A DNA stretch of 64,000 nucleotides, from positions 62,001 through 126,000 of the forward strand of contig NZ_JAENIO010000005.1 in NCBI RefSeq assembly GCF_016595415.1, written 5' to 3'. The translations under genes and the position numbers were made by a program. This document shows, piece after piece, positions 11,677-29,254 of the stretch (positions are counted from its first letter, which is position 1; each line of letters opens with the position of its first letter). The DNA is from Roseibacillus ishigakijimensis (GTDB taxonomy: Bacteria > Verrucomicrobiota > Verrucomicrobiia > Verrucomicrobiales > Akkermansiaceae). Under the pieces are notes generated by a model, which was not told the origin of the DNA, made no database searches, and was given only the letters and a program-made list of their open reading frames with translations.

Positions 11677-11985
11677 TTAGAGGGGGCCGTTGATCGCGCC
11701 TTGCAGGCCCCAGACCTCGCGCTCTCCGGCGAGGGCGACGAGTTCCACTTCTTTCTCGTCGCCGGGCTCGAAGCGGATAGCGGTGCCGGCCAGGATATTG
11801 AGCCGGAAGCCGCGCGCCTCCTCGCGGGGGAAGGCGAGTTTACTATTGACCTCGTAGAAATGAAAATGGCTGCCCACCTGGATGGGGCGGTCGCCGGTGT
11901 TGGCGACGACGAGGGTTTTGGTAGCCAAGCCCTCGTTGGCGGCGAGGGGTTCGCGGTCGGCGGGGATGATTTCTCCGGGTTTCAT
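11677..11985 (-). CDS. ureB: Urease subunit beta
   Basis: This is 102 residues, the normal size for a separate UreB. It opens with [19 protein letters not shown] and carries the conserved core [20 protein letters not shown] and the segment [17 protein letters not shown]. UreB is a structural subunit of nickel urease and forms the apoenzyme with UreA and the catalytic UreC. It starts 6 bases after ureA ends. It is the last urea gene here: no ureC, ureD, E, F or G lies downstream, so this locus cannot make active urease by itself. Confidence 0.95.
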
Positions 11986-11991
11986 GGACGC

Positions 11992-12294
11992 TTATTGCAC
12001 GGGGTTGTGAACGGTGACCAGTTTGGTGCCGTCGGGGAAGGTGGCTTCCACCTGGACCTCGTGGATCATCTCCGCGATGCCCTCCATCACGTCGTCGCGA
12101 CTCAGGATGCGGGTGCCTTCGTCCATCAGCTCGGCGACCGATTTGCCATCGCGGGCTCCCTCGATCACTTCGTAGGTGATGATGGCGACCGCTTCCGGAT
12201 AGTTCAGCTTGAGGCCTCGGGCCTGGCGGCGCCGCGCGAGGTCGGCGGCGACGACGATCATGAGTTTTTCGCGTTCGCGGGGAGTCAGGTGCAT
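11992..12294 (-). CDS. ureA: Urease subunit gamma
   Basis: This is 100 residues and full length. It begins [20 protein letters not shown] and has the conserved [20 protein letters not shown], the VAELMDEG segment and the C-terminal [20 protein letters not shown]. UreA packs against UreB and UreC in the urease trimer. The gene follows urtE by 6 bases and precedes ureB by 6, so it belongs to the same transcript as the urea transporter. Confidence 0.95.
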
Positions 12295-12300
12295 GGCTCT

Positions 12301-13011
12301 TCAGACGCTGAGATACTGCGCCACAAGTTCGTCGGAGAGAAGGCTAATCTCGCCGCTTTCCACCACCGAGCCGCGCTCCATGATGCAGAAGTGATCGGAG
12401 ACCGATTTGGCGAAGTCGAGGTATTGCTCGACAAGGAGAATGGTCATGTTTCCCGCCTTTTTGAGGTAGATGATGGCGTCTTCGATCTGGTCGATGATGG
12501 AGGGTTGGATGCCCTCGGTGGGTTCGTCGAGAATGAGGAGGCTGGGATTGGTGAGGAGGGCGCGTCCGATGGCAAGTTGCTGTTGTTGGCCGCCGGAGAG
12601 GACCCCGCCTTTGCGTTCCCGCATCTCGGCCAGGACGGGAAAGAGTTCGAAGACTTCGTCGAGTCGATCGCGCGCGGCTTGGCCATGCACGCTGAGGCTG
12701 ACTTTGAGATTTTCCCAGATAGTGAGGTTGGGAAAAATGTCGCGCCCCTGGGGGACATAGCCGAGCCCGGCGCGGGCCCGTTTTTCGGTGTTCATCCCCT
12801 TGAGGGACTGTCCGTCGAAGGTGAGATCGCCTTCGCCGAGGGGAACGAGCCCCATGATGGCCTTGAGCGAGGTGGTCTTGCCCACCCCGTTGCGACCGAG
12901 GAGGGAGACCACCGAGTTGGCGGGGGCGGTGAAGGAGACTCCACGGAGGATGAGGGATTCGTCGTAGGAGACGTGGACGTTGTCGAGGGTGAGTTTGGCG
13001 GGTGCGCTCAT
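12301..13011 (-). CDS. urtE: Urea ABC transporter ATP-binding protein UrtE
   Basis: This is 236 residues, one of the two ATPases of the Urt high-affinity urea importer. Walker A is GRNGVGKTT, the signature LSGGQQQQLAIGRAL, and Walker B LLILDEPTEGIQPSI. The EGIQPSII stretch is typical of UrtE/LivF ATPases. The ATG overlaps the urtD stop by 4 bases (ATGA), suggesting translational coupling. UrtE versus LivF is decided by the adjacent ureA and ureB. Confidence 0.93.
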   Translation of the reverse strand: MSAPAKLTLDNVHVSYDESLILRGVSFTAPANSVVSLLGRNGVGKTTSLKAIMGLVPLGEGDLTFDGQSLKGMNTEKRARAGLGYVPQGRDIFPNLTIWENLKVSLSVHGQAARDRLDEVFELFPVLAEMRERKGGVLSGGQQQQLAIGRALLTNPSLLILDEPTEGIQPSIIDQIEDAIIYLKKAGNMTILLVEQYLDFAKSVSDHFCIMERGSVVESGEISLLSDELVAQYLSV

Positions 13012-13799
13012 GCGGCTTCGGTGTGTTTTTGGCGTCCGAGATAGACTTCTTTGACGGTGGGATCGTTGGCTACCTGGTCGAAGGAGCCTTCCTTGAGGAC
13101 GTGGCCCTGGTGAAGGACGGTCACTTTGCGGGCGATTTGACGGACGAACTCCATATCGTGCTCCACGACGACGACGCTGTGTTTTCCTTCCAGGCTGAGG
13201 AGGAGTTCGCCGGTGCGCTCGGTCTCGTCGTCACTCATCCCGGCGGCAGGTTCGTCGACGAGGAGGATGCGCGGTTTTTGGGCCAGCAACATCCCGATTT
13301 CGAGCCATTGCTTTTGCCCGTGGGAAAGACTGCCCGCCAGCTCGTCCTGGCGGTCAGCGAGCCGGATGGTCTCGAGCACTTCTTCGATGGCATCGCGGTC
13401 TTCTTGGGTTTCATGGTAAAAAATGGCCTTCAAGACACTGCGGTCGCGGTTGAGCGAGAGGAGGATGTTCTCGCGCACGGTGTGCTGGGTGAAGACGCTG
13501 GGGGTTTGGAATTTGCGGGAAATGCCAAGGCGATTGATCTGGTATTCGCGGAGCTTGGTGAGGTCGAGGTCGTGGCCGTCGGCCTGGTGAAAGGTCAGGG
13601 TGCCTTCATCGGGGCGGGTGCGCCCGGTGATGAGGTCCATGAAGGTGCTTTTGCCCGCGCCATTGGGGCCAATGACGGTGCGCAGTTCGCCTTCCCCGAG
13701 GTAAAAGTTGAGGTCGTTGATGGCCTTGAAGCCATCGAAGGATTTGTTCACTCCCTCCACGGAGAGCGTGAGGTCGGTGTCGCGATAGAGAACGGCCAT
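13008..13799 (-). CDS. urtD: Urea ABC transporter ATP-binding protein UrtD
   Basis: This is 263 residues, the second ATPase of the importer. Walker A is GPNGAGKST, the UrtD/LivG-specific region ISRKFQTPSVF follows, the signature is LSHGQKQWLEIGMLLAQKP, and Walker B is RILLVDEPAAGM. The C-terminus ends ...TVKEVYLGRQKHTEAA, close to the usual VYLG end of UrtD. Its ATG shares one base with the urtC stop (TGATG), and its stop overlaps urtE. Confidence 0.94.
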   Translation of the reverse strand: MAVLYRDTDLTLSVEGVNKSFDGFKAINDLNFYLGEGELRTVIGPNGAGKSTFMDLITGRTRPDEGTLTFHQADGHDLDLTKLREYQINRLGISRKFQTPSVFTQHTVRENILLSLNRDRSVLKAIFYHETQEDRDAIEEVLETIRLADRQDELAGSLSHGQKQWLEIGMLLAQKPRILLVDEPAAGMSDDETERTGELLLSLEGKHSVVVVEHDMEFVRQIARKVTVLHQGHVLKEGSFDQVANDPTVKEVYLGRQKHTEAA

Positions 13800-14935
13800 C
13801 AGTTATTTTCTACGAGGGTTTTGGAGTCGGAGTGGGCGGCCCGGTAGGATTTCACATAGCCCACCACCTTGTGATAGAGGCCGACGATGCCATCGGGCAT
13901 GAAGAGGACCACCACCACGAAGAGGAGACCGAGGATGATGAGCCAGTATTCCGGGAAGGCCCGGGTGCTCCAGCTTTTGAGGAGGCTCACCAGAATGGCA
14001 CCGATGACGGGACCGAACTTGGTGCCGCGTCCTCCCACGGCGACCCAGACCACAATGTCGAGGCCTTTGGAAGGCTTCATTTCCTCGGGATTGATGATTC
14101 CGGCCTGGGGGACGTAGAGAGCGCCCGCGAGACCGGCGATGATGGCGCTGAGGACGAAGATGAAGACCTTGTAATGGGTCGAGGAATAGCCCGAGAAACG
14201 CACGCGGTTTTCAGAGTCGCGAATGGCGCGCTGCACTTGGCCGAACTTGGTCTTCAGGAGCCAGGAAAGCCCCCAGTAGACGGCGAGGAGGAGCACGCCG
14301 GAGGCGATGAAGAGGGCCCGGGTGGTGCTGTCGTCACGGATGTCGGCTCCGAAGATGAACTTGAAGTCGGTGAAGCCGTTGTTCCCGCCGAAGGTGAAGT
14401 CGTTGCGGAAAAACATCAGGGTGGCGGCGTAGGTGAGGGCCTGCGTCAGGATGGAGAAGTAGACGCCCTTGATGCGGGAGCGGAAGGCGAGGGTCCCGAA
14501 GATGAAGGCGACCAGGCCGGGCACGACCATGGCGGCGAAAATGGCGAACCAGGGATTGTAGAAGGGCTTCCAGTGCAGGGGCAACTCCTTGTAGCCGAGG
14601 AAGACCATGAAGTCGGGGAGGGTGCTTTGGTAGGACCCGAGTTCCCCGATCATGAGCATGAGATACATCCCGAAGGCATAGCCGCCGAGGGCGAAGAAGA
14701 GGCATTGCCCGAGGCAGAGGAGCCCGGTGTAGCCCCAGAGCATGTTCAAGCTCATGGCCAGCACCGCGTAGCAGAGATATTTGCCCCAGACCCCGAGTTG
14801 GAAGCTGGAGAGCACTCCCATTCCATTGAGGATGGGGAAGGCGGCGATGAAGACGGCGAGAAGCGCAAAGGTGATCCATTCCCCCCGGTTGTTGAAGGGT
14901 CTGGCCAGATTGGAAAAAGGTGAGCTGGCGTTCAT
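13799..14935 (-). CDS. urtC: Urea ABC transporter permease UrtC
   Basis: This is a 378-residue inner-membrane permease of the branched-chain amino acid/urea family with about ten hydrophobic segments. Family landmarks include [21 protein letters not shown], the loop around the GGNNGFTDF motif, and near the C-terminus [20 protein letters not shown], where the EAA-like loop contacts the ATPases. It pairs with UrtB to form the channel. It follows urtB by 6 bases. Confidence 0.94.
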
Positions 14936-14941
14936 GGTTTG

Positions 14942-16564
14942 TTAGTCTTCGAGGCTGCGGGAACGGGCCGGGAAGATTCCTCCGGGCTTGAATTGAAGGA
15001 AAAGGATGATGCCGAGGAGGACGGTGATTTTGCCCATCACCGGGCCGAAGAGGGGCTGGAGGCCCTGGTCCACCACTCCGATGCCGAGCGAGGAGATGGC
15101 GGCTCCGAAGAGATTGCCGACTCCTCCCACCACGACCACCATGAAGCTATCCACGATGTAGGTTTGTCCCATGGAGGGGCCCACGTTGCCGATTTGGGAG
15201 AGAAAGGCTCCCGCCAATCCGGCGAGACCGGATCCGAAGGCAAAGGTGAGCATGTTGACGCGGGCGGAAGAGACCCCCAGGCAGGAAGACATCTGGCGAT
15301 TCTGCATGGTGGCGCGCACATGCAGACCCCAGTTGGTTTTGGTCAGCAAAAGCCAAGTCACGACCACCACAAGCGCGGCGAAGATAATGAGGGAAATACG
15401 GTTGTAAGAGAGGGAGATGCCCCAGAGCTCGTAACTGCCCGAGAGCCAGCCGGGGGAGGCCACCGCGACATTGGCGGCTCCGAACTTGAGGCGGAAGACC
15501 TGCTGGAGAATCATGGAAACACCCCAGGTGGCGAGGAGGGATTCCAAGGGGCGTTTGTAGAGAAATTGGATGAGGCCTTTCTCGAGGCCGGCCCCCACGA
15601 GGGCGGAAGCGAGGAAGGCGATGGGCAGGGCAATGATGAAATACCACTGGAAAGCCGCCGAATCGGGGCCGTATTGGGTGAGAAAGAAATTCTGCACCAG
15701 ATAGGTGGTGTAGCCACCGATAGCGATGAACTCGCCGTGGGCCATGTTGATGACGCCCATTTGGCCAAAGGTGATGGCCAGACCGTAGGCCACGAGGAGG
15801 AGAACGGAGCCTGTGCTGAGGCCGCGCACCAGGGTGCCGGCGATCTCGACAATTTTCTGGTGGTCGTCGATTTTGCGGAGGGCGGTGGTGATGGCGGCTT
15901 CAAAGTCGGCGAGATTGTCGGGAGCGGTCTCCTGTTTCTCGCTGAGCAGTTTTTCAAGAAAGTCGCGGGCGGGGTAGCTCTTCATTTCTCCGAGCTTGCT
16001 CACCGCCGCCAGTTGTTCGTCGGGGGTGCCATTCTTGAGCTCGGAAATCCACAGGGCTTCTTGGAAGGCCTTTTTGACTTTCTTGTCTTCCTGCTTGGGA
16101 GTGAGCTCCCGCAGATCGGGCAGGTATTCTTCGTTTTGGCTGAGGCCGAGCTTTTCGGCGGCGGCGATGCGCTTGTTGAGATCAGGCGAGCGCAGGTCGA
16201 GGACATCGACGATGCGTTTGAGAGTTTTGCGCAGACTGCGGCTGGCGCGGGAGATTTTGACCTCTTCCGAAGCGGTCGCGGCTTTGCCGGTCAAAAGGTC
16301 GACGTAGGAGTCTTCGCTTGTTTCGAGGAGAACGCGGGGTCCGGCAGGAGTCTCGTCAATGCTGACCTTGCCCAGGCGCCAGGCTTCCACGACCTCGCCG
16401 ATGATGGGTTCGCCGCGTTCCCGCAATTCGGCGATGGCTTGCTCCTGGGCGTCGTCCTCAAGGAGGATGACTTGGGAGAGAATCTTGCGGGTCGAGAGTT
16501 CGTCCTGGGCGGATAAAGAAGAGAGGCACAGGAAGAATGGCAGGAGATAGAGTAAAGTTCTCAA
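14942..16564 (-). CDS. urtB: Urea ABC transporter permease UrtB (long form)
   Basis: This is 540 residues. After a signal peptide (MRTLLYLLPFFLCLSSLSAQ) comes an extracytoplasmic region of about 220 residues. The region contains ELRERGEPIIGEVVEAWRLG and HEAT-like helical repeats. The permease domain follows (about 245-540), with VINMAHGEFIAIGGYTTYLV and VVVVGGVGNLFGAAISSLGI. The long N-terminal domain occurs in many proteobacterial UrtB proteins and is absent from the shorter LivH-like form, so this is not a new fusion. A 143-base gap with a strong hairpin separates it from urtA. Confidence 0.93.
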   Translation of the reverse strand: MRTLLYLLPFFLCLSSLSAQDELSTRKILSQVILLEDDAQEQAIAELRERGEPIIGEVVEAWRLGKVSIDETPAGPRVLLETSEDSYVDLLTGKAATASEEVKISRASRSLRKTLKRIVDVLDLRSPDLNKRIAAAEKLGLSQNEEYLPDLRELTPKQEDKKVKKAFQEALWISELKNGTPDEQLAAVSKLGEMKSYPARDFLEKLLSEKQETAPDNLADFEAAITTALRKIDDHQKIVEIAGTLVRGLSTGSVLLLVAYGLAITFGQMGVINMAHGEFIAIGGYTTYLVQNFFLTQYGPDSAAFQWYFIIALPIAFLASALVGAGLEKGLIQFLYKRPLESLLATWGVSMILQQVFRLKFGAANVAVASPGWLSGSYELWGISLSYNRISLIIFAALVVVVTWLLLTKTNWGLHVRATMQNRQMSSCLGVSSARVNMLTFAFGSGLAGLAGAFLSQIGNVGPSMGQTYIVDSFMVVVVGGVGNLFGAAISSLGIGVVDQGLQPLFGPVMGKITVLLGIILFLQFKPGGIFPARSRSLED

Positions 16565-16608
16565 TGTGGCAAAGAGTTGGGCGAGAGCCAGGTTGTTGGG
16601 AGAGGAAA

Positions 16609-16643
16609 GGATGCCCCCGCCAAGGGGATTGACGGAGGCATCC
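16609..16643 (-). terminator. Intra-operon hairpin between urtA and urtB
   Basis: GGATGCCCCC (16609-16618) pairs with GGAGGCATCC (16634-16643) with one mismatch. Read on the minus strand, the stem is followed by TTTCCTCTCC, a weak T-rich stretch. It lies 65 bases after the urtA stop. A partial terminator or 3'-end stabiliser here would give more UrtA than membrane components, as is common in binding-protein operons. Confidence 0.55.
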
Positions 16644-16707
16644 TCATAGTCAGCAACTCAACCAAAGGAAGAGTGAGGGGGTGGGCCTTCCAGACAGAAG
16701 AGGGTTC

Positions 16708-17955
16708 TTATTCGGAGAAGGTGCCTTTGAGGAAGGGCTCTCCTTCCACATTCTCAATGGAGTCGATGACCAGGAACTGGCCTGTCTCCAGAGTTTCGCC
16801 GATGTAGACGTTTTTGGTCAGGTGGTGATTCTCCTGCGAGGTCACCGTGCCGCCGGGGCCATCGAAGCTGACGCCTTCTTTGAGGGCTGCCATCACTTTC
16901 TTGGGGTCAAAGCTCTCGGCTTTCTCAACGGCAGCTTTCCAGAGGTAAACGCCGTTGTAGGAGAGGACCATGGGCGAGCAGGTGACGCGGTCGTCCTTGA
17001 CGATTCCCGGCACGTCGGTTTCCTTCAGCCAGGCTTGGAAGTCCGCTTTGAACTTCTCGTTGGCCGGGGTGTCGAGGGACATGAAGTAGGTCCAGCAGCC
17101 AAGGTGGCCGACGAGGTCCTTGGCGGGCAGGGAGCGGAATTCGTCCTCGGAAAGGGAGAAGGAGACCACCGGGCAATCTTCGGAGGTGAGACCGGAGGCC
17201 GCGAATTCTTTGAAGAAGGGCACATTGGCATCCCCGTTGATGGTGTTGATGACACAGGCATCGCCAGAGGCCGCGAACTTCTTGATGTCAGCTACGATTT
17301 GTTGGAAATCGCTGTGCCCGAAGGGAGTGTAGTTTCCGGCGGAAATGACCTCGCCATCGGCATCCTTGCGTAAACCACCTCCGATGTTCTCCACCGGAAT
17401 GCCCTTCGACTGAAGGTATTCAAAGAGAACCAGGTTGGTGGTCTGGGGATAAACGTAGTCGGTGCCGATGAGATAAAACTTCTCGTAACCCTCCTCGAGG
17501 AGGAAGTCGACCGCAGGAATGGCCTGCTGGTTGACGGCCTCGGCGGTGTAGAAAATGTTCGGCGACATTTCTTCGCCCTCGTATTGCACGGGGTAAAAGA
17601 GGAGGCCGTTGTATTTCTCGTAAACCGGCAAGACCGACTTGCGCGAGACGGAGGTCCAGCAGCCGAAGGTGACCGCGACTTCATCCTGGGCGAGAAGCTG
17701 TTCCGCTTTTTCCGCGAAGAGCGGCCAGTCGGAGGCTCCGTCGACGACTACGGGTTCGATTTTCTTGCCCATCACGCCTCCGGCTTCGTTGATTTCGTCG
17801 AAGGTGAAGAGGAGAATGTCGCGCAGCGAGGTCTCCGAGATGGCCATCGTGCCGCTCAGGGAGTGAAGGACGCCGACTTTGACCGAGTCCTCGGCAAGGG
17901 CCATACCCGCCAGAGCGAGACTGGCGGAGGCAATGGTTTTGTTAAGGAGATTCAT
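16708..17955 (-). CDS. urtA: Urea-binding periplasmic protein UrtA
   Basis: This is 415 residues with a signal peptide ending [10 protein letters not shown]. The mature N-terminus [20 protein letters not shown] is diagnostic of UrtA and of the amide-binding AmiC/FmdD group. Other landmarks are [31 protein letters not shown] and [14 protein letters not shown]. It binds urea in the periplasm and delivers it to UrtBC. Placement with urtBCDE and ureAB favours urea over short amides. It starts 29 bases after the porin-like gene. Confidence 0.95.
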
Positions 17956-17984: not shown

Positions 17985-18716
17985 TTAGAAGCTGAAAGAG
18001 ATGCCTGAGCCGAAGGTCAAGAAGTCATCTTCTGAGTTGCCGATCACGTCTTCGTCAGTGAAGTAATAAGTCAAGCTTCCGTAAACGGCCACGGTGTCGG
18101 TGAGGGCATAGGTCAGGCTGGCACCCAAGGTGGCGTAGCCGAATCCGGAATCCTCGGTATGGAATTCAGTGGCGGCGAAGGCGACCGAGGAGGAGAGGCC
18201 AAGGGCGACTTTCTCACTCAGGGCGAATTCGTGGCTGATTTCCCCAACGAGGAACGTTCCCTCTTCCCCTCCGCTCGCACCTGCCCCCAGACGCTGGTGA
18301 ACAGTGAAGGAAGGATTGAGGAAGGTGTTCAGGCTCAATCCGAGGTCGAGAATTTCTTCCGAGGTGCCACCGTATTGCCAGTTCTGGAAAGTCGCGCTCA
18401 CCGAACCAAAGCCCAAGTCGTAGCTGGCCCCGAACCAGACATCGGTCTCGACGGCCTCGAAGGAACCGGTCTGGTTATTCACATCCATCCATACCCCGGC
18501 ATTGAGGGTCACTCCTTCGCAGAGCACGTAGTCAACGCTAAGGGAGGGGTTGAAGATGAAGTCGGGTTCATCACTTTCGCCCCAAACATTGAAACCATAA
18601 GAAACGAAGTGAGAGTTCGCGTCCAGGGCGAGGGTGGCAGATAAGTCTCCGACTTCCGCTTGAGAGGTCTGAGAGATAGCGAATGAAAGCGCAAAGATGC
18701 TAATGGTCTTTTTCAT
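17985..18716 (-). CDS. Porin-like outer-membrane beta-barrel protein, first gene of the urea operon
   Basis: This is 243 residues. The start is placed at the ATG at 18716 because it opens a good signal peptide (MKKTISIFALSFAISQTSQA). The frame extends upstream, but that part lies across the promoter. The mature protein has alternating amphipathic strands and aromatic girdle residues, and it ends in phenylalanine (GSGISFSF), the classic outer-membrane insertion signal. The pattern suits the TorF-type putative porins. Its position directly ahead of urtA, behind a sigma-54 promoter, suggests it lets urea or amides cross the outer membrane. That role is inferred. Confidence 0.75.
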   Translation of the reverse strand: MKKTISIFALSFAISQTSQAEVGDLSATLALDANSHFVSYGFNVWGESDEPDFIFNPSLSVDYVLCEGVTLNAGVWMDVNNQTGSFEAVETDVWFGASYDLGFGSVSATFQNWQYGGTSEEILDLGLSLNTFLNPSFTVHQRLGAGASGGEEGTFLVGEISHEFALSEKVALGLSSSVAFAATEFHTEDSGFGYATLGASLTYALTDTVAVYGSLTYYFTDEDVIGNSEDDFLTFGSGISFSF

Positions 18717-18760
18717 CGTGTGTTTTGGCAATTCCGGATATCCCGGTTGTGCAGAGCAAT

Positions 18761-18777
18761 TGCATCTACTGTGCCAA
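18761..18777 (-). promoter_or_regulatory. Sigma-54 promoter of the porin-urt-ure operon
   Basis: The minus strand reads TTGGCACAGTAGATGCA. The invariant GG (18775-18774) and GC (18763-18762) are separated by exactly 10 bases. The -24 half TTGGCAC is perfect and the -12 half ATGCA differs at one position. The predicted transcript start is near 18750, leaving about 34 bases before the porin ATG. This fits nitrogen control through an NtrC-type activator. No clear NtrC palindrome was found just upstream; that stretch (18783-18937) is AT-rich and has no gene. Confidence 0.8.
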
Positions 18778-18937
18778 CACAATGAGTAGGTTTTTCTCTC
18801 GTTGTAATCTATTGTTTTTTAGAGGTATTAATCTTTTCTGAATAGCTAGATAAAGTCTATATTGTAAAATATAAATGATAAATCTGAAGGCCCTTTTTCG
18901 ATAGTGCCTGTGTGTTCTCAGGCGGGTCCGGAGCAGG

Positions 18938-20299
18938 TCAGTGCGCGATCTGGGGCCAGAAGGTGTCCCAGTCGAAGGGGCGGGAGAATTCGCCGTGGTG
19001 GCAAGTTTTGCAGTCTCCGGCTCCGAGAGGGCGGAAGCGGAAGCTGGGTTCTTCTCCGGCCAGCCAGCTCTCGACATGGGCGCTGCCGGGGCCGTGACAG
19101 GATTCGCAGCCGACGTCGACCAGTTTTTCCGCGCCGAAGCTGCGCCGGTAACCGGAAGGCTCGCCAAACCCGACGGTGTGGCAGCCGATGCAGGTGGGGT
19201 CGGCTTGGGAGTCGCGTTGCACGAGGGTGGCGAAGGCATGGCCGTGACCGGACTTTTGCCAGATTTCGGTCTCCTCAAGGTGACATTGGGCGCAGGCCTG
19301 GCTGCCCAGGTAGCGGGCGGTGGGGGTGACGCCGGGGATGAGATTGGGGTCGTTTCGCTCCGGAGCGTCGATGTCGAGGGTGGCGGTGCTGATGTATTCC
19401 CGGAATTCGGCGGAGAGGGCGGCGATTTCGGAATCCTGGGGGACTTCGGGGTAGAGCATGTGGATGTCGAAGGCTTCCTCTTGCAGGCGGCCTTCTTTGC
19501 GGCGAAAGGCAATCTGCCCCACCGTGCGGGCTTCGTTGGTGGTGAAGACGAGAAGGGATTGGTTGACGGATTGGGCTTTTTGGGAAGCTTGTCGGACATC
19601 GCCACCGATGATGAGGGCGAACTCGTAAAAGTCCTTGGCGAGTTGCTGCATTTCGTCCTCCCGGGCAAAGGCGAGGAGGATGATTTCGTCGCACTGGGCC
19701 TGGAGGCTGGGCAAATGGCGGGAGATGGCGTCGTGGAGGGACAGGATGGCGAGGCCTTCGCCGGGAGTGGGGACAGAGCTGGGGGAGAGAACCCCAAGAA
19801 GACCGATGCGGCGGCCTTGGTGGTCGATGACGAGGGAGGGAGGAGCCAGCGGGGCGCGGGTGGCGGTATCGACGAGGGAGGCGCTGAGCAGGGGAACTTC
19901 CGCTTGGGCGAGAATGGTGCGCAGGGTTTGCGCGGGGAGGCGGGCTTCGCTGGCTCCGAGGTTGAGGGCTTGGTAGCCCATGGTGCGGTAGGCCTCGCGC
20001 AGGTAGCGATACTGGATGACGTGGTAGTCCTGCTCGCCGCCGAGAGCTCCGCCGATGTCGACGAGGAGAGAGTCTTTCTTGCGGTTTTTCTTTAGCCAAG
20101 ATTGGGCCCGGGTGAGGCCGCCGAGCTGACCAGTGAAGCAGCCGCAGGGCTCCAGGCGGCCATTGGTGTCGCAGGTGAAGTAGACGGTGAGGGGGGGAGT
20201 CTCGCGGGCGGGTTCCCGGGTGAAGTGAACGAGGATGGCGAGGCCGGCCCCGACGAGGACGAAGAGGGTGAGGGCGGCGGCGAGGACGGGCTTCGACAT
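18938..20299 (-). CDS. Tetraheme cytochrome c fused to degenerate 5'-nucleotidase-like domain
   Basis: This is 453 residues from the ATG at 20299; the longer open frame upstream overlaps DUF4159 and is ignored. One N-terminal membrane helix (AAALTLFVLVGAGLAILVHF) anchors it outside. Residues about 35-290 resemble the metallophosphatase half of UshA-type 5'-nucleotidases (YFTCDTNGRLEPCGC, QLGGLTRA, LVDIGG). The usual D-x-H and later Asp ligands are missing, so catalysis is doubtful. The C-terminal part has four heme sites: CAQCH, CIGCH, CESCH and CKTCH, as in cytochrome c554-like proteins. It is the last gene of the MoxR/VWA operon, 23 bases after DUF4159. Confidence 0.8.
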   Translation of the reverse strand: MSKPVLAAALTLFVLVGAGLAILVHFTREPARETPPLTVYFTCDTNGRLEPCGCFTGQLGGLTRAQSWLKKNRKKDSLLVDIGGALGGEQDYHVIQYRYLREAYRTMGYQALNLGASEARLPAQTLRTILAQAEVPLLSASLVDTATRAPLAPPSLVIDHQGRRIGLLGVLSPSSVPTPGEGLAILSLHDAISRHLPSLQAQCDEIILLAFAREDEMQQLAKDFYEFALIIGGDVRQASQKAQSVNQSLLVFTTNEARTVGQIAFRRKEGRLQEEAFDIHMLYPEVPQDSEIAALSAEFREYISTATLDIDAPERNDPNLIPGVTPTARYLGSQACAQCHLEETEIWQKSGHGHAFATLVQRDSQADPTCIGCHTVGFGEPSGYRRSFGAEKLVDVGCESCHGPGSAHVESWLAGEEPSFRFRPLGAGDCKTCHHGEFSRPFDWDTFWPQIAH

Positions 20300-20322: not shown

Positions 20323-20961
20323 TTAGTAAACGAGGGCGTAGACGAGAGCGTTGACGTTGATCTCCCGCGAGTTGCGGAGCTCGTTGCCGCCACAGCAGCA
20401 GCAGCCTTTGGCATTGCCGGCGTTGTTGAGGCCTTCGGGGGAGTAGAGAATGGCGAGGCGGCCATTGACGTGGACTCCGTGGAGCTTGATGTGGCCCACG
20501 CGGCTGCCGGCATCGAGATGGGTGATGGTGTGGACCATGGAGAAGAGTTCGTGGTCCATCTCGATGGGCTCCAGGGGGTGGGCGGGGAAGATGGCGGCCA
20601 GTTCCCGCTTGAAGGCGGCGTTCCATTTTTGGTCGGAGCAGCCGGGGCTGACGATGATGAACCCGCCATTCATGACGTAGCGCTTGAGATTGGCTCGTTC
20701 GGCTTCATTGAGCTGGAATGTCCCCTCGCCGGTGAAGATGCAGAGGGGGGTGCGGAAGACTTCCTCGCTGGCCAGCTTGATGCGGTCGAATTCGGGGTCG
20801 ATGTCGAGTCCGGTCTCGCGGGCGGCATCGCTGAGGAAGGTGTTGGCGAAGCAGACCGAGGTTTGGTTTTTGCCATAGACCAGGTTGCCGCAGGTGATGG
20901 TGGTGGGATTGGCGCTGAGGGGGAGAGCGAGGCTGGCGAGGAGGAGGGTGTGTCGAATCAT
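20323..20961 (-). CDS. DUF4159 exported protein
   Basis: This is 212 residues from the ATG at 20961, which overlaps the stop of the preceding gene (ATGA). A signal peptide (MIRHTLLLASLALPLSA) precedes a DUF4159 domain with GGFIIVSPGCSDQKWNAAF and MDHELFSMVHTI. This Rossmann/glutamine-amidotransferase-like family regularly sits with MoxR, DUF58 and VWA genes. Near the C-terminus there is a run of four cysteines (KGCCCCGGN), which could bind metal or link to the neighbouring redox protein. Molecular function is unknown. Confidence 0.8.
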   Translation of the reverse strand: MIRHTLLLASLALPLSANPTTITCGNLVYGKNQTSVCFANTFLSDAARETGLDIDPEFDRIKLASEEVFRTPLCIFTGEGTFQLNEAERANLKRYVMNGGFIIVSPGCSDQKWNAAFKRELAAIFPAHPLEPIEMDHELFSMVHTITHLDAGSRVGHIKLHGVHVNGRLAILYSPEGLNNAGNAKGCCCCGGNELRNSREINVNALVYALVY

Positions 20962-23831
20962 GGTTCCGTGGGGTTGGGGGTTCGGGTGAGGGCGCGGAAG
21001 TAGGCTTCCGTCAGATTTTCGTATTCTTGTAAAGTGGCTTGGCTTTCGGGAGTTTGGGTTTCGCGGCTGCTGGCTTCCTGCTCGCTTTCGGCGCGATTGC
21101 TTTCGACTCGGGCGAGGGGTTGGCCGGACTGGCCGAAGTTCCCCCGGGTTCCGGCTTGTCCGGCCAAGGTGCGCCCGATGGGACCGAGGAGGAGGGAGCG
21201 GCCGCCGAGGAGTCCCATTTGTTGGCCGGGCATGATTCCGGTGGCGAAGGAGCCGCCTTGACCCATGCCGGAGCTGCCCTGGGAGCCAGGGTTGAAGCAG
21301 AGGGAGTCCATCATTTGCTGGAAATTCTGCCCCGGCGGGCTGTCCAGCGAGAGAGAGAGGTAGTGGTCGAGCTCGCTCTGTCCCTGGCCCTGGCATTGGG
21401 AGCAGGAGCTCATCAGGGATTCCATTTTTTGCTGCAAGTCGGAGGCCTGGGCGTGCGATTGGCTGCCCTTGCCGCTGAGCATGCTTTGCGAGCTTTCCCG
21501 CCCGAGGGGAGGGAGGTTGTGGTGGCCGATGGCGTCGGCCAGCTCGCGGGCGCTTTGGGAGGCTTTGGGAAAATCCTCTTCGGCGGCCCCGGCGTGGCGG
21601 CGCAGTTTTTCCTGCAGGTCCTGCAGCCGGGTGGCCACTTCCCGCTGGCGACCCGCCATCTCCTGCAGGGAAAGGCGGTCGGCGGGGGAAAGTTCGGGCT
21701 GGTTCTCGAAGCGGGCGGTTTGTTCGGCGAGGGTTTTCTGCTCTTCGTAGAGGGCCTTGAACTCGTTGACGTCCTTGATCAGCTCGTGCAGGGCGGCGAG
21801 GTCGGCCAGGGGCTCGCGGATGGCTTCTTCCCCTTGCTGCTGCTCTTGGCCGAGGCGGGCCAGTTGCTCGCGGGCGGCTTGAGCGGAGTCGCGGGCGTCC
21901 CGGGCTGCGGCGTTGTCCTGGTCGTTTTGCGCTGCGGATTGGGTGATGGCTTGGGCCATCTCGCGCAGGTGTTGGTGGAGGTTTTCCTCGAAGTCGTAGA
22001 CGGGAGTTTGCCCCGCCATCTCCTCCATGCCCCGGGCGGTTTCGCGGAGCTGCTCATTGAGCGCTTCCTGGGCCTCTTGCAACTGGTTCCACTCCTTTTT
22101 CTCCGCCTCTGAGAGTTCACCCTGGGCCTCGCGTTGGGCCAATTTTTCCAGTTTTTCGGCGAGACGCTCTTGTTCCCGCAACTGGGAGTGGAGCTGGTCG
22201 AGGAGTTGCTCGTAGGCCCCGGCAATTTGGGCGACATCGGCCTGGCGACGGAGAAACTGTTGGTATTGCTCTTCGGAAATCACTTCCAGACGGCGCATCT
22301 CGGTGCGGGTCAGGTGGGGGTCGGGGCAATTGTCGATGGCTTCGGCAAAGAAAGTGATCACTTGCCCCGGGCGCGCCCCCAACTGGTTGAGCTGGATGGT
22401 GCGGCGGAATTGCTCCCGTCGCGGTCCCACGCCGGAAAAGTCCTCGCTGAGGGCGGCCAGCGGCTGGTCGTCGACAGCGGGGAGCAGCCGCAGAGTGCGC
22501 AGGCCGTAGTCATCGGAGGCGGCGACCTCGATGAGGAGTTCGTGATTTTCCACCACAAAAGAATCCTCCTGCGGTTGGGAAAAGCTGAGCGAGGGAGGGA
22601 GATCCTCGCTGACGGTGAGGGAGCTGTGCGCGGTGTCCTCCGCCGGACGGCCTTCTTCGTCGCGCAGGGCAAAGTGAAAACGGCCGGACTCGCGAACCGT
22701 GAGGGTGGCCACCGCCGTGGAGGTCTTGCCGCCTGGCAGGGGCTTCAGTTCCTGGGAATCGGAGGCTCCTTCGCTGGTGGTGAGGGTGAGTTCCCCGGTG
22801 CCGAGGGGGCGATTGGATTGGACCGCGAAGGTGAGGGTGGAGCCCTGCAGGGCCTGCAGGGTGGTGAAGCGGAAGGGTTGCTCGCGGGCGGGCAATCCGG
22901 TGTAGGCGGGTGGGGTGATGGTGACCTGGGCGTCCTCGATGCGGGGATTGAGCAGGACCGCGAGGTGGCGCTGTTTGCTCAGGCTGCGCTCATTGGGGGT
23001 GTGGGCGGTCAGCACGAGGGGAGCCTGGACATCTTCCAGCACCGCGAGGTAGAGCCCGTCGCCTCGGGTGGAGAGAGGGATTTCGCGCGGGCGGCGGGAG
23101 CCATCCCGGGGTTGGACCCGGAGGAAGAGTTCCTCCGGCAAGTGGCCCTTGGCCTTCACCTCAATGCGGGTGGATTCGCCGTAGACCACTTCGAGGCCAT
23201 CGTGATTGGGTTTGGAGATTTCCAGCCAAGTGAAAGAGAGGGGCGGGTGATCGCCGTGGGGATGGAGGAAGCGGAGGAACTGGCGGCGGCCGGCTTCTCC
23301 CAGCAGGAGGGGCAGGAGAAGAAAGAAGGCCGTTACGAGCAGGGCCCGCTTGGCTTCGCGCTTGAGGAAAGGGGCGCGGGCCTGGGCCCGAATCTCGGCA
23401 GTATCGAGGTCGCGGGTGGCATCGGTGACCGCTTGTTGGGCCAGCTCGCGGGTGAGGGGACTGAGGCGGGAGTCGGTGGCTTGGTCGTGGAGTTCGAGAA
23501 GGTTGGTCAGTTTGCTGCCGAAGGCGCGGTGGCGTTTTTCGAGGATTCCGGCCATCGCCTGGGCCGCGGGGCGGGCGCAGAGAGCGATCAGGAAGGCGGT
23601 CAGGAGGAGTAGGAAGAGGGTTCCAAGGAGGGTCAGGCTCAGGCCGGACCGGGTGCCGGGGCCGAAGTGGAGAAGGATGTCGGCGAGGCAAAGGAGGAGG
23701 AAGGCCGCGAGCAGGAATTTGACCGCGCGCAGGAGCAGGAGGAGGGCGCGATGGCAGGCGTGGGTGGACGCGGCCTGGCGCAGGGCCTCCAGCACGGAGG
23801 AGCGGTTGCGGTGTTGGGGAGAAGAGCTCAT
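20958..23831 (-). CDS. DUF4175-like large membrane/coiled-coil protein
   Basis: This is 957 residues. Hydrophobic helices lie near residues 28-52, 65-90 and 165-185. Beta-rich Ig-like segments follow (STRIEVKAKGHLPEELFL, then PPSLSFSQPQEDSFVVENHE). A very long Gln/Glu/Ala-rich coiled-coil stretch runs from about 530 to 800 (for example QEAQEALNEQLRETARGMEE). The tail is Gly/Ser/Gln-rich and low-complexity. This layout matches DUF4175 family proteins found in MoxR/VWA clusters. A periplasmic scaffold for the complex is inferred. It starts 19 bases after the second VWA gene. Confidence 0.7.
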   Translation of the reverse strand: MSSSPQHRNRSSVLEALRQAASTHACHRALLLLLRAVKFLLAAFLLLCLADILLHFGPGTRSGLSLTLLGTLFLLLLTAFLIALCARPAAQAMAGILEKRHRAFGSKLTNLLELHDQATDSRLSPLTRELAQQAVTDATRDLDTAEIRAQARAPFLKREAKRALLVTAFFLLLPLLLGEAGRRQFLRFLHPHGDHPPLSFTWLEISKPNHDGLEVVYGESTRIEVKAKGHLPEELFLRVQPRDGSRRPREIPLSTRGDGLYLAVLEDVQAPLVLTAHTPNERSLSKQRHLAVLLNPRIEDAQVTITPPAYTGLPAREQPFRFTTLQALQGSTLTFAVQSNRPLGTGELTLTTSEGASDSQELKPLPGGKTSTAVATLTVRESGRFHFALRDEEGRPAEDTAHSSLTVSEDLPPSLSFSQPQEDSFVVENHELLIEVAASDDYGLRTLRLLPAVDDQPLAALSEDFSGVGPRREQFRRTIQLNQLGARPGQVITFFAEAIDNCPDPHLTRTEMRRLEVISEEQYQQFLRRQADVAQIAGAYEQLLDQLHSQLREQERLAEKLEKLAQREAQGELSEAEKKEWNQLQEAQEALNEQLRETARGMEEMAGQTPVYDFEENLHQHLREMAQAITQSAAQNDQDNAAARDARDSAQAAREQLARLGQEQQQGEEAIREPLADLAALHELIKDVNEFKALYEEQKTLAEQTARFENQPELSPADRLSLQEMAGRQREVATRLQDLQEKLRRHAGAAEEDFPKASQSARELADAIGHHNLPPLGRESSQSMLSGKGSQSHAQASDLQQKMESLMSSCSQCQGQGQSELDHYLSLSLDSPPGQNFQQMMDSLCFNPGSQGSSGMGQGGSFATGIMPGQQMGLLGGRSLLLGPIGRTLAGQAGTRGNFGQSGQPLARVESNRAESEQEASSRETQTPESQATLQEYENLTEAYFRALTRTPNPTEP

Positions 23832-23850: not shown

Positions 23851-26004
23851 TCAAGTCAGGCCCCATCTTCGGCGAAGGAACCATTCGAAGGCGAGGAGAA
23901 AGACGAGGAGGAGGCAGATCCACGCGGTGTCCCAGAGGGGGATGAGGCGGGTGCGGGCTTCCATGGGAGCGCTTTCCCGCAGGAGGTTGCGCACCACTTC
24001 GGAGATTTCCGGAGGAGAAATGACCCGCCCGCCGGAAGCGGTGGCCAGCTGCTGGAGATAGGCCAGATCGGCGGCGGTCTCGGTTTGCTCCAGTTGTTCG
24101 CGAAAGACCATGAAGCGGGCGCTCAACTCCGTGCCGTCGGGCAAAGTGGTGCTGGCGCGGTAGCGGCCCTCGGTGCGGGGGGTGAAGGTGACGCTCGCGG
24201 AGCCTCCCTCGGGAGCCGGCTCGAAGGTGAGCCGGGCCGCTGGCGAATCCCCGTGCTCCAGCTGCAGCGGCGGCAGGGGAGTGGGGGCGGGTTCGCCATT
24301 GAAGAGGAGCTCGAAGGTGATGCTCTCGCCCAGCGGCAAGTTGGCGGTCGTGGTCTGCAGGGCATAGCCCGCACCGGGGCTGATGCCGTCGTTGGAGAGC
24401 AGCCAGAGCAGGAGCTGGTCCCAAAAGAGGTCGTAGAGGTTGTTGTCGAACTCGGTCTTTTCGTTGAAGACCCAGTGCCAGAGCTTGGCGACCCCAAGAG
24501 AGAGGGTTTGGCCGCTGCCGAGACGGCGGAAGACGATGGCCGGGAGCTCGGAATGATTTTGCCCGTAGGCGGCGGCCAGGGTCTTGGGCTTGCCCCTGGG
24601 ATGGTAGGCGAGAATCTCCGGCAGCTCGGCAGCATCGGCGCGGGTGTGCAAGAGACGGAAGGGCGGGATGGAGAGACCGCTCTGGGTGACCTCGATGCGG
24701 CTAGCGCTGGGCGCTTCCTCACTCCAGTCGATGGGTTCGAGGTCGGCTTGGGCGGCCCCGGACCAGGCCTGACCCCGCGAAAAGAGGACAATGCCGCCTT
24801 TGGTGTCGACCCATTCCTCGAGGGCGGTGAGGCCTTTTTCTCCCAGGATGGCTTCGACTTTTTTTCCGAGAATCACCACCCGGTAGGAGGAGAAATCGGC
24901 CACGCTCTGGGGCGTGTCGAGGTCGCTCTCCGCGCGCCGTTCGTTGGAGCGGATGGCCCGGGTGCGGGTGGGAGTGAAGCGGACTAGGGTGTCGACCTCC
25001 AACTTGTCATTGCGGGTGAGGGAGCGTCGCAAAAAGGTGGTGTCCCAGTAGGGTTCGCCCTCGATGAGCAGGAGGCGGATTTTTTCGTCGAGGACGTTGA
25101 GGTAGCTCACCGTCTCGTTGTTGTCGGTGCTCACCTCGCCCCGCAGGGGACGGACCCGGAGGGCGTATTCGAATTGTCCGGCTTCTTTTTCCGTGGTGAT
25201 AAACTCGATGTCATGGAAAGGCTCGGTGCCGGTCTCGATGCGTTTGCTGTCCTTGAGTTCGCCCTCCCGCAGGAGGTCCACGGTGAGGGTCTCCTGCTGG
25301 CAGCCGAGGGCGCGGATGGTGGCGGTGAGGCGGGTGGCCTGATGGCGGAAGGTGTAGGGGTGGTAGGTGGTGGCGCGGATGGAGAGGTCGCGGGCCGAGC
25401 CCTGGGCGCCGAAGGGCACGGCGTAGATGGGACAATCCCGCGCCGTGGCCAGGCTGGCCGTTTGTCCGGGTGAAATGGTCTCCAGATCATGGCCGTCGCT
25501 GAGGAGGAGGAGGGCCGCGGGTGGAGCCCCGGTGGCGGCGCGAAAGATGCTGCGCAGGGAACTGTGGAAGCGCGTGGTGGGACCTTCCGCCGCCAGGGTA
25601 GCCAATTGCGCGGGTGAGCTGTAGCGAGCTTCTTCATCGAATTCGAAAAAGGTGAAGGGGGAGCTCTCCTCTGTACCCAGCACGCCCGCCTCTTCCAGGG
25701 CTTGGCGGGCGTGATCCAGGCGGGGAATGCCACCGTCATCACTTTCCTGCATGCTCGCCGAGCTATCGACTGCCACGAGCAGGGAGCGCTCGATGGAAGG
25801 CGGGGTGAGGCTTTCCTCCCGCGACGGGCGGAGGAGAAGGACCAGGATGCCGAGGATGGCAAGCAGGCGTAGGGTGGTCAGCAAGCCGTTGCGCAGGGGG
25901 CCCAGGCGTCGCCCGGGGAGTCGGTGGGCAAAAAGGGTGAGCAGCACCCCGATCGCTGCCAGGAGCAGGATCCACGAGAAAGGGAGGATGGGCTGGAAAG
26001 TCAT
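23851..26004 (-). CDS. VWA-domain membrane protein with glutamine-amidotransferase-like region
   Basis: This is 717 residues from the ATG at 26004, which overlaps the BatA-like stop by 4 bases. Two N-terminal membrane helices (FSWILLLAAIGVLLTLFAH and LLTTLRLLAILGILVLLLR) lead to a von Willebrand A domain. Its MIDAS motif is VDSSASM (DxSxS intact). The middle part (LLLIEGEPYWDTTFLRRSL) resembles the class I glutamine-amidotransferase-like fold often joined to VWA in these clusters. A final membrane helix (LLLVFLLAFEWFLRRRWGL) ends it. It probably assembles with the BatA-like and DUF58 proteins under MoxR control. Confidence 0.8.
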   Translation of the reverse strand: MTFQPILPFSWILLLAAIGVLLTLFAHRLPGRRLGPLRNGLLTTLRLLAILGILVLLLRPSREESLTPPSIERSLLVAVDSSASMQESDDGGIPRLDHARQALEEAGVLGTEESSPFTFFEFDEEARYSSPAQLATLAAEGPTTRFHSSLRSIFRAATGAPPAALLLLSDGHDLETISPGQTASLATARDCPIYAVPFGAQGSARDLSIRATTYHPYTFRHQATRLTATIRALGCQQETLTVDLLREGELKDSKRIETGTEPFHDIEFITTEKEAGQFEYALRVRPLRGEVSTDNNETVSYLNVLDEKIRLLLIEGEPYWDTTFLRRSLTRNDKLEVDTLVRFTPTRTRAIRSNERRAESDLDTPQSVADFSSYRVVILGKKVEAILGEKGLTALEEWVDTKGGIVLFSRGQAWSGAAQADLEPIDWSEEAPSASRIEVTQSGLSIPPFRLLHTRADAAELPEILAYHPRGKPKTLAAAYGQNHSELPAIVFRRLGSGQTLSLGVAKLWHWVFNEKTEFDNNLYDLFWDQLLLWLLSNDGISPGAGYALQTTTANLPLGESITFELLFNGEPAPTPLPPLQLEHGDSPAARLTFEPAPEGGSASVTFTPRTEGRYRASTTLPDGTELSARFMVFREQLEQTETAADLAYLQQLATASGGRVISPPEISEVVRNLLRESAPMEARTRLIPLWDTAWICLLLVFLLAFEWFLRRRWGLT

Positions 26005-28112
26005 GTCGTGCGGGTGGGGCGGGATTGCGGGGCGAGGAGAGCGTGCAAAAGGCTTTCCACCCCAAGCAGCAGGAGCGCGGTGAGCACGAACCAATGGAAG
26101 ATCGGACGTCCTTGGCTGAGCTCGCGAAAACTCTGCCCGCCCTTGACCTGGGCTCCCTGCGAGTCCTTGGGGGCCCGCTCCGGGAGCACGGCCACGTCCA
26201 GAGTGCGGAGATCGCTCTCGCTTTCGGAGGGGTTCACTGCGAAGGCGCGCAGGAGACGCCCCCCGCGACCGGGAAGGGAATGGATGCCGGGCTCCTCGGG
26301 AGTGAAGGTGAGAAAGGCCCGCTCGCCCCGGAGGTCGATCTTGGTCGCCATTTTTTCACCGGAGGGACTGCGCATCTCGCGGCCGAGCACTTCGCTGGCC
26401 CAGGTGTCGAAGCTCACGCTGTCGCCCAGCTGGTAATCGTTGGCAAGGGTTTCTCCTTGGCCCAATTTGGCGAGAAGGTCGTGGATCCAGCCGGGGAAAA
26501 GCTGTTGGCGGGCGAGATTGGAAGAAAGCTCGGAGACCGAGAAGTTGCACAGCAGCAGGGTGCCGAGCCCGACCTGGGCCTCGGCCATCGCCGGGGTGCC
26601 ATCGGCGTAGTGCAGGAGAATGCGGCCTTCCCCGGTGGGGATGGCGTGGTAGAAATCGTAGAATTCCAGAAAGGCCAGATTGCGCCGGCGCTCGCCCTCG
26701 AAGAGTCGGAGAAAGGGGGAGCGGAAGTCTCCCCGGGCCACCTTCATCGCGCCTCCCGGGAGGTTGGCCGAGCTGAGCCTGGTAGTCAGCTCCAGGGGTA
26801 ATTCCGTGCCGCTGGCGAGGGCCAGTTGCGCCAGATTCTCGCGGTCCTTGTCGCCATCGAGAAAGAGAATCATCCCGCCGCCGGAGGTCAGGTAGGTGGC
26901 CAGGAGGGCGGCTTCTTCCTCGCTCCATGCCGCGGTGCGCGAGGCCAGCACCTTGGAGGTGCCCGAGAGGGCAGGGGCGGTGACCGGCTGGTCCACCAAC
27001 TCGCGCACCCGGTAGCTCCCTCCTTCTTCTCCCCTTTCGCCGTAGGGGTTGACGGCGGCGCGGAGAAAGCGGGCGGGCGGGGAGGGCTCGCCTTCGCGGG
27101 CGGTGGTGAGAATGAGGGTTTCCTCCGCCTCGCCGACTTCCACCACCAGCCAGCGGGTGTTGTCGAGGGTCAGTTGGTCTTGCCCCAGCCGGAGGGTGAG
27201 GGCGTGCAGGCCGGGAGGGAGGGCGGGGAATTCCACGCTGATCTCGCTCTCCGCCCAGGGGACGAGCTGGAGGGGGACCTCGCGGGCCTGGCTTTCGCTG
27301 GCCACCACTTCCAAACGGCCGTGGTAGTGATCGGCGGAAAAATTGGCCACCCGCGCCCGCACGGTGAAGGGGCGGCCGCGCACCGGGGCCTCCTCGCCGA
27401 GGCTGGCGGAGAGGATGGCTTGGTTGGCCCGCTCCCCGTCATCCGTGGTGGGGATGAAGAGGAGGCGGGCCTGTGGGGGGAGTGTTTCGAAGTGGATATT
27501 GGCCCAGTTTTTGCGCTGAAAATCGGAAAGGTAGTAGATCTCCACCGGGCCCTCGGCCTGTTCGGCCAAGCGGGTGAGCTGGCTGTTGGCGGCCTTGAAA
27601 TTGGCTTCCACCGGCTGGGGCTCCTGCTCGGCGAGGAATTGACGGGCGGCAGCGACGTTGTGGCTGAATTGGGAAAAGGCGGTCTCCGGCGTGCGGCCAA
27701 CCATCACGAGATTGACCTTGTCGAGGGGATCGAGGGAGGCCAGCAGGCGCTCACACTCACTGCGCGTGCGTTTCCAGGTGGAAAAGTTGCCATCCCGATG
27801 CGCCATGCTGAGGGAGCGGTCGATGGCAATGAGCACGTGGCGATGGCCCTCTTGCGCGTCTTTTTTTCCCAAGCCCAGCACGGGATTGAGAAAGGCCAGG
27901 ACGAGGGCGACCACGGCGAGGGCGCGCAGGAGAAGGTAGAGAAAGTGGCGCCATTTGAAAACGCGGGAGCGTCCCGCCACCGCTTTCTTGAGGTCGGCCA
28001 GCGAGGAAAAGACGTATTTCTTGGGAAAGCGGCGGCTGAGCCAATGGATGAGGAAGGGGAGGGCGGCCACCGCGAGCAGCCCCCACATCGCGGGTGGAGT
28101 GAGGAAGGTCAT
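26001..28112 (-). CDS. BatA-like aerotolerance protein with VWA domain
   Basis: This is 703 residues. The N-terminus FLTPPAMWGLLAVAALPFLI followed by HWLSRRFPKK is the BatA/aerotolerance regulator domain. Two membrane helices are followed by a VWA domain with intact MIDAS (AIDRSLSM). The long C-terminal part carries CARDB/Ig-like strands and an amidotransferase-like region. It starts by 4-base overlap with DUF58 and ends by 4-base overlap with the next VWA gene. Bat proteins are linked to envelope integrity and oxidative stress in Bacteroides; that role is not proven here. Confidence 0.82.
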   Translation of the reverse strand: MTFLTPPAMWGLLAVAALPFLIHWLSRRFPKKYVFSSLADLKKAVAGRSRVFKWRHFLYLLLRALAVVALVLAFLNPVLGLGKKDAQEGHRHVLIAIDRSLSMAHRDGNFSTWKRTRSECERLLASLDPLDKVNLVMVGRTPETAFSQFSHNVAAARQFLAEQEPQPVEANFKAANSQLTRLAEQAEGPVEIYYLSDFQRKNWANIHFETLPPQARLLFIPTTDDGERANQAILSASLGEEAPVRGRPFTVRARVANFSADHYHGRLEVVASESQAREVPLQLVPWAESEISVEFPALPPGLHALTLRLGQDQLTLDNTRWLVVEVGEAEETLILTTAREGEPSPPARFLRAAVNPYGERGEEGGSYRVRELVDQPVTAPALSGTSKVLASRTAAWSEEEAALLATYLTSGGGMILFLDGDKDRENLAQLALASGTELPLELTTRLSSANLPGGAMKVARGDFRSPFLRLFEGERRRNLAFLEFYDFYHAIPTGEGRILLHYADGTPAMAEAQVGLGTLLLCNFSVSELSSNLARQQLFPGWIHDLLAKLGQGETLANDYQLGDSVSFDTWASEVLGREMRSPSGEKMATKIDLRGERAFLTFTPEEPGIHSLPGRGGRLLRAFAVNPSESESDLRTLDVAVLPERAPKDSQGAQVKGGQSFRELSQGRPIFHWFVLTALLLLGVESLLHALLAPQSRPTRTT

Positions 28113-29254
28113 CGCGGGGGAGTGGGGGTGAGGTCGTTCCAGTGGCGGAAGCCCAGGTAGGCCTCGATGGCATCGAGGTAGGGCCGGGCGGTGTCGAGAA
28201 TGGCAAAATCGATGCCCTGCTGGCGGGCTCCCTCGCGCAGGTCCCGCGTGCGCCGGGCGACCGTTTCTTCAAAGGCGGCGCGCAGCTCGGCAGGCTCGAC
28301 TTCCATTTGTTCGTTGGTCTCGGCATCGACAAAGCGGGCCAGCGGGGCATCGGGCAAGGTGCGTTCGTCGGGATCGGAGAGCTGGAGCAGGAGGATGTCG
28401 AAGCGCCGGTGGACGAAGGGGCCGAGGGCGTCGAGAATGTCAGCCGGGTCTTCTCCCAAAAAATCGGAGAGCACGACGAGGCGACCCCGGCGCTTGAGCA
28501 GGAGGGCGCTTTCCCGCAGGGAATTCGCGATGGAGGTGGGGCCGCTGGGTTGCAGGGCGGGCTTGATGAAGGTGCGCAGCATTTCCTGCAAATGGCGCTC
28601 CGTGCCGCTCGTCGGCAGGTGGCTCAGCACCCGGTCGCCGAAGAGGGTGAGGCCGACCTTGTCCCCTTGCCGCATCATGAGGCAGGCCAGGGCGGCGGCG
28701 ATGCGGGCCGCGCGCAGGCTTTTGCTCTCCTTCCCTTTGCTGTGATAAACCATCGAGCCGGAGGCATCGACCACGAGGTGAACGGCCAGGTCGGTGAGCT
28801 CCTCGTAGGTGCGGACGAAGAGGCGCTTGGTGCGGGCGTAGACCTGCCAATCGATGGCCGAGGTCTGCAGGCCGGGCTGATACTGGCGGTGCTCGGCGAA
28901 TTCTCCTCCGCTGCCGAGGTCGCGCGATTTGTGCTTGCCTGCGAAGCGGCTCTCGACCGCGCTCTTGGCGAAAACGAGGAGGTTTTTGAAGCGGTTGAGC
29001 TCATCCTCGTCGAGGAGTTGGCGGGCGTGCGCCAGATCGGCCTGCTCCCGGGCGAGGCGGGCTTTTTCCTGCAAGTCCCGTTCGACCTCCTGGGCCCGCT
29101 GCAGGCTCTCGGCCAGATTTTGCCCGGAATCGGAACCGGCGGCGGCGGCCTTGGCGCGGGCGAGGGAGCCGCTGCGCTGCGAGGGCAGGGGCGGAGGTCC
29201 CAGGGAGGGGCCTTTGGGCAGAGGGGGAGGGATGTATTTGTCGAGCCAGCTCAT
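28109..29254 (-). CDS. DUF58 protein
   Basis: This is 381 residues, soluble and with no clear membrane segment. It has the DUF58 core: HRQYQPGLQTSAIDWQVYAR, then the MIDAS-like VVDASGSMVYHSKGKESKS and the strand RGRLVVLSDFLGEDPADIL. The first 90 residues are a proline-rich then Ala/Glu coiled region. DUF58 proteins nearly always follow a MoxR ATPase, and this one starts 12 bases after moxR. The pair is thought to work as a chaperone or metal/cofactor-insertion system. The client here is unknown. Confidence 0.88.
   Translation of the reverse strand: MSWLDKYIPPPLPKGPSLGPPPLPSQRSGSLARAKAAAAGSDSGQNLAESLQRAQEVERDLQEKARLAREQADLAHARQLLDEDELNRFKNLLVFAKSAVESRFAGKHKSRDLGSGGEFAEHRQYQPGLQTSAIDWQVYARTKRLFVRTYEELTDLAVHLVVDASGSMVYHSKGKESKSLRAARIAAALACLMMRQGDKVGLTLFGDRVLSHLPTSGTERHLQEMLRTFIKPALQPSGPTSIANSLRESALLLKRRGRLVVLSDFLGEDPADILDALGPFVHRRFDILLLQLSDPDERTLPDAPLARFVDAETNEQMEVEPAELRAAFEETVARRTRDLREGARQQGIDFAILDTARPYLDAIEAYLGFRHWNDLTPTPPR

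Follow-up and report, generated by a model that had tools for sequence, protein, structure and literature searches.

P0001, a gene on the minus strand at positions 18938..20299 of the 64,000-nucleotide stretch of Roseibacillus ishigakijimensis DNA analysed here (the window), encodes an UshA-type metallophosphatase fold which has lost its metal ligands, carries an invariant C-x-C pair and is fused to four heme sites. The gene is the last one of a Bat-type operon, and a second, sister clade of such operons has an unrelated gene in the same slot. The cysteine pair would make the protein a periplasm-facing thiol redox domain that trades electrons with its four hemes, a reading which we regard as about as likely as not.

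An UshA-type fold without its metal site, fused to a tetraheme cytochrome

P0001 is an ATG-start ORF of 453 aa, and its orthologs (n = 10) have the same length and architecture. The ten comprise matches in the phylum sample and orthologs obtained in further searches, Roseibacillus persicicus (L025) included. A hydrophobic N-terminal helix (residues 4-26, 20222..20290, minus strand) was predicted from the sequence as signal anchor or signal peptide. It corresponds to residues 3-26 in a full-length model (built from three sequences, pLDDT 47) and is replaced in three orthologs by lipobox-like N-terminal ends (ASC, IGC, LGC). P0001 is suggested to be a membrane-anchored protein facing the periplasm.

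The region of residues 33-284 (19448..20203, minus strand) was assigned to the UshA-type metallophosphatase fold by profile, model and column comparison. A profile of nine P0001 orthologs matched the PDB 5'-nucleotidase 2z1a with an E value of 1.2e-14. For the fold comparison a domain model of residues 33-300 was used (built from three sequences, pLDDT 78, pTM 0.80), not the full-length model. It was aligned over ~240-250 residues with UshA (1oie, 1hp1), 2z1a, CD73 and SoxB at Z scores of 23-25, with an rmsd of ~3 Å to UshA (1oie, 1hp1), 2z1a and SoxB. The outline of an UshA-type fold, as seen in the original prediction, is confirmed by both approaches. The N-terminal domain of P0001 shares its fold with the UshA/5'-nucleotidase family (2z1a, 1ush, CD73) and with SoxB. 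Unlike the UshA family, P0001 is UshA-like in its first domain only, lacks the metal ligands and the catalytic histidine, and continues with a C-terminal tetraheme cytochrome; no Pfam match to the substrate-binding domain 5_nucleotid_C was found in it, the C-terminal part being the cytochrome domain. A search of plasmids gave ordinary 5'-nucleotidases only and no fusion.

The ligand columns were read across the ten orthologs alongside 15 same-phylum relatives with an intact site. Whereas the intact relatives (n = 15) have the expected residue at every UshA ligand column, P0001 retains one of the seven ligands of the dinuclear set (D-x-H, GD, GNH[DE], H, GHxH). This is D44, equivalent to UshA D41, located in residues 43-54, CDTNGRLEPCGC (20138..20173, minus strand), where UshA H43 is changed to N46. 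At the further ligand positions D84 is replaced by G84, N116 by A116, H217 by F211, H252 by D234 and H254 by R236, and the catalytic H117 by S117. Across the ten orthologs the D41 column reads DDDDDDDEDD (D in nine, E in one), H43 NHQRFSQESS, D84 GGGNGGNDDN, N116 AAAGGAAQAS, H117 SGRARAHNRR, H217 FFFYFFYFFF, H252 DDDDDDANDD and H254 RGKRRGQKSQ. In all or nearly all of the ten, six of the seven metal ligands and the catalytic histidine are gone. The claim that the ligands were lost, with D-x-H replaced by CDTNG, is right for the histidine and has to be corrected for the aspartate, which is kept as D44. The IGG noted at the next Asp (DxGD) holds for P0001, and two of the ten orthologs still have D at this position. 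Model alignment and ligand columns together support the proposed metal-free reuse of the UshA fold tied to CxxCH hemes.

The cytochrome c554-like domain (residues 335-403, 19091..19297, minus strand) contains hemes 1-3 and was matched by PF13435 with an E value of 4.3e-14 and a score of 53.6 bits (gathering cut-off 20.8). Four heme sites were located in the sequence, all on the minus strand: CAQCH (residues 336-340, 19280..19294), CIGCH (370-374, 19178..19192), CESCH (398-402, 19094..19108) and CKTCH (430-434, 18998..19012). All four, already counted as heme sites in the original prediction, are invariant in the ten orthologs. The best sequence match in the PDB was cytochrome c554. P0001 resembles cytochrome c554 (PF13435; PDB 1bvb) in how hemes 1-3 are ordered and spaced and in its CESCHGPG motif; it differs by the fused UshA-type domain and by a similarity that covers hemes 1-3 only. 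The viral contigs searched contained a standalone tetraheme cytochrome only, and no UshA fusion. This 143-aa c-type cytochrome (L063:4971-5402), encoded on an IMG/VR contig of 186.9 kb, resembles the tetraheme domain (motifs CKMCH, CVKCH, CESCHGPGS and CIKCH) and is possibly an auxiliary metabolic gene.

The Bat-type operon and its sister clade

Directly upstream of P0001, on the same minus strand, lies a DUF4159 gene (20323..20961, PF13709, E 4.5e-21) with an approximate start (the listed ORF extends back to 21396). It is preceded by a DUF4175-like gene of 957 aa (20958..23831, PF13779), a vWA-like gene of 747 aa (23851..26094, no Pfam match above cut-off), a BatA-like gene (26001..28112, PF07584 and PF13519), a DUF58-like gene (28109-29254) and a MoxR-like AAA+ ATPase gene (29267-30241), all again on the minus strand. 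The last two were named by eye, and their order is conserved among the ortholog loci. As far as the loci reach, the gene order is MoxR, DUF58, BatA, vWA-like, DUF4175, DUF4159 and then the UshA-cytochrome gene, which is the last gene of the operon, directly after DUF4159, in 10/10 orthologs.

The ortholog-profile search detected the gene in 7/388 Verrucomicrobiota genomes. DUF4175 of the window's type (E <= 1e-140) was found in the same seven genomes and in no others, the remaining DUF4175 matches in the 388-genome sample having E values of 5e-57 or weaker. A search of genome contigs with the single protein gave two close relatives and no more. Elsewhere in the window, a 265-aa outer-membrane-like protein with no Pfam match (17985-18782) is encoded between the UshA-cytochrome gene and urtA. 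Further downstream on the same strand (11677-17955), genes resembling those of the urease subunits UreA and UreB and of a urea ABC transporter (UrtA-E) were named by eye. A 2197-aa ORF at 3509-10102, also assessed by eye, has repeated 'LQxDGK'-type and Ig/Calx-beta-like stretches and is probably secreted or surface-located.

Sister operons with unchanged order and diverged genes occur in further genomes; G031 and G334 are two genomes in which both kinds were present. In the DUF4159 tree the two kinds are parted by one branch with a support of 100/99. After DUF4159, the sister operons encode a protein of ~1340-1600 aa that combines HEAT repeats with a CxxC domain of glutaredoxin-like type and a membrane domain, the latter displaying NPCAFA and CTGQVY motifs and weak DsbD_2, DsbD or ArsG scores. 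This HEAT/glutaredoxin-like/DsbD-CcdA-like protein was found in 15 of the 16 assessable sister loci (L100-L105, L144-L146 and L148-L153, with L153 cut by the contig end) and is missing in L147; L143 was left out of the count, as the locus ends too early. Across Verrucomicrobiota, proteins of this type (L107-L112, L144-L146, L148-L153) form the end of the operon in the sister clade. The sister protein and P0001 have the operon slot and the presumed nature of a redox module in common, but their sequences are unrelated, and the sister protein has a CxxC and membrane thiol relay and no hemes. Judged by position, the slot after DUF4159 appears to be one for redox modules that work outside the cytoplasm, of which these two seem to be alternatives.

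The cysteine pair and its possible chemistry

The paired cysteines of EPCGC, which had been noticed near the lost site in the single sequence, proved to be its new constant feature: C52 and C54 are present in 10/10 orthologs, and the UshA domain of the ten has no other invariant His or Cys. C43 (CDTNG) is a cysteine in nine orthologs and an alanine in L106, and the description as three invariant cysteines was dropped for this reason. The loop containing the pair has a pLDDT <50 in the domain model.

The NCBIfam family NF041198, 'UshA-like (seleno)protein' (UshA_like_PCGU), matched P0001 with an E value of 9.5e-71 and 238.9 bits. The match spans both parts, UshA and heme (8-269 and 357-518 of 519), so the UshA-cytochrome fusion is not new. 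P0001 scores under the equivalog cut-off of 275 bits, which was reached in none of the 388 genomes of the phylum, and is thus a diverged Cys form in Verrucomicrobiota. The architecture belongs with the catalogued family as such a variant, and P0001 is therefore not categorically new. Selenoproteome surveys list the family with a CxU motif, one as NF041198 (PMC13188914) and one as COG0737, UshA-like (PMC2398784). Both P0001 and NF041198 show PCG[C/U] at the lost active site and were matched in both halves, the agreement of CGC with CGU being drawn from the family name and the published motif. P0001 differs by Cys in place of Sec, by its position outside the curated equivalog and by its tie to a Bat-type operon in Verrucomicrobiota. 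Its Cys codon is TGC where selenoprotein relatives would have Sec, and no in-frame TGA was found inside any ortholog. A tRNA-Sec gene (anticodon tca, L113:1502-1595) is present in the genome from which the window comes, which makes selenoprotein production possible; the Cys in P0001 is thus not forced by the absence of that tRNA.

PMC2398784 sets the UshA-like family apart from families with conserved Cys-based redox motifs, so that a redox role of the family is unproven there. The invariant C-x-C and the CxU motif of NF041198 argue for redox chemistry or for tight metal or heteroatom binding, and not for passive sensing. It is conceivable, though we rather doubt it, that the cysteines and D44 ligate a newly acquired metal or cluster (Zn, Cu, Fe or a non-heme iron site) at the lost dinuclear site, with a catalytic or regulatory role next to the hemes. 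CxC and Sec are both able to ligate metals, C43, D44, C52 and C54 cluster in sequence at the former site, and position 44 is acidic (D or E) throughout the ten orthologs. However, with Ala at position 43 in L106 two Cys and one Asp are left, and the rest of the UshA domain offers no further invariant His or Cys as ligand.

We consider it unlikely that the protein acts as a sensor or binds a ligand through a domain linked to the hemes, with the cysteine pair as a structural element or redox switch. A vicinal CxC is uncommon as structural disulfide, the Sec of the relatives is hard to square with structural cysteines, and P0001 has no output domain. In favour of such a role, the UshA fold was kept while catalysis was lost, and the literature still allows for Bat proteins having a part in signalling (PMC3557215). 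The 'sensor or binding domain' of the original prediction is not the best reading of P0001, given the invariant C-x-C, the CxU of NF041198 and the thiol-redox modules found in the sister slot.

Catalysis may also be placed at the hemes. In cytochrome c554 three hemes are bis-His-ligated and one is five-coordinate. Besides the histidines of the CxxCH motifs, exactly three (H352, H408, H453) are invariant in the ten orthologs, a number which, at the level of the sequence, is consistent with three bis-His hemes and one open heme without distal His. P0001 would then be a small-molecule reductase or oxidase acting at an open-coordination heme of the c554-like domain, with the UshA part as scaffold or for substrate presentation. 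We regard this as improbable: the heme ligation is assumed, and the invariant CxC and the CxU motif of the family are left unexplained. A phosphoesterase still active with alternative ligands was rejected as highly improbable on account of the lost metal ligands, since despite an intact fold and the kept first Asp neither the His ligands nor the GNHE motif nor the catalytic His are conserved in the ten orthologs.

A possible role of P0001 in the Bat-type operon

In the preferred reading, that of a thiol redox domain working with the hemes, the UshA-type domain would have given up two-metal binding and phosphoester cleavage. The former active-site loop would display C52-G-C54 as a dithiol/disulfide pair, next to D44 and, in most orthologs, C43, at the place where the catalogued relatives have Cys-x-selenocysteine. 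The proposed reaction partner of this pair is a thiol, a disulfide or another redox compound, and electrons would pass in one direction or the other between the pair and the four hemes of the c554-like domain, which would connect to the c-type cytochrome pool of the cell. P0001 could in this way supply or drain reducing equivalents for the Bat-type extracytoplasmic machinery. The glutaredoxin/DsbD-like protein may play the matching part in the sister operon clade, and the two terminal genes may be functionally equivalent, judged by their position.

PMC3557215, citing Tang 1999, refers to an earlier proposal in which Bat proteins send reducing equivalents out into the periplasm or reduce damaged proteins in that compartment. 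The Leptospira biflexa deletion described in the same work gave no oxidative-stress phenotype, and a redox role of Bat was unsupported there. The terminal position of P0001 in a Bat-type operon suggests a role in managing reducing power on the outer side of the cell membrane. More tentatively, a phosphoesterase fold might have been turned into a periplasmic enzyme linking a thiol (or selenol) to a multiheme cytochrome, taking the place of the glutaredoxin-DsbD module in one clade of Bat/MoxR-type operons.

UshA-like selenoproteins have been catalogued since 2008, with no function assigned in the sources found. The operon link and the exchange with the glutaredoxin/DsbD-like module appear to be new, having no prior description in the literature searched. 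The operon link gives the UshA-like family a testable context, and the occurrence of unrelated redox modules in the last slot of two Bat-type clades bears on the long-standing, disputed proposal that Bat systems convey reducing power to the periplasm. If the proposed role is true, the fusion would be the electron supply or drain for a Bat/MoxR-type membrane system.
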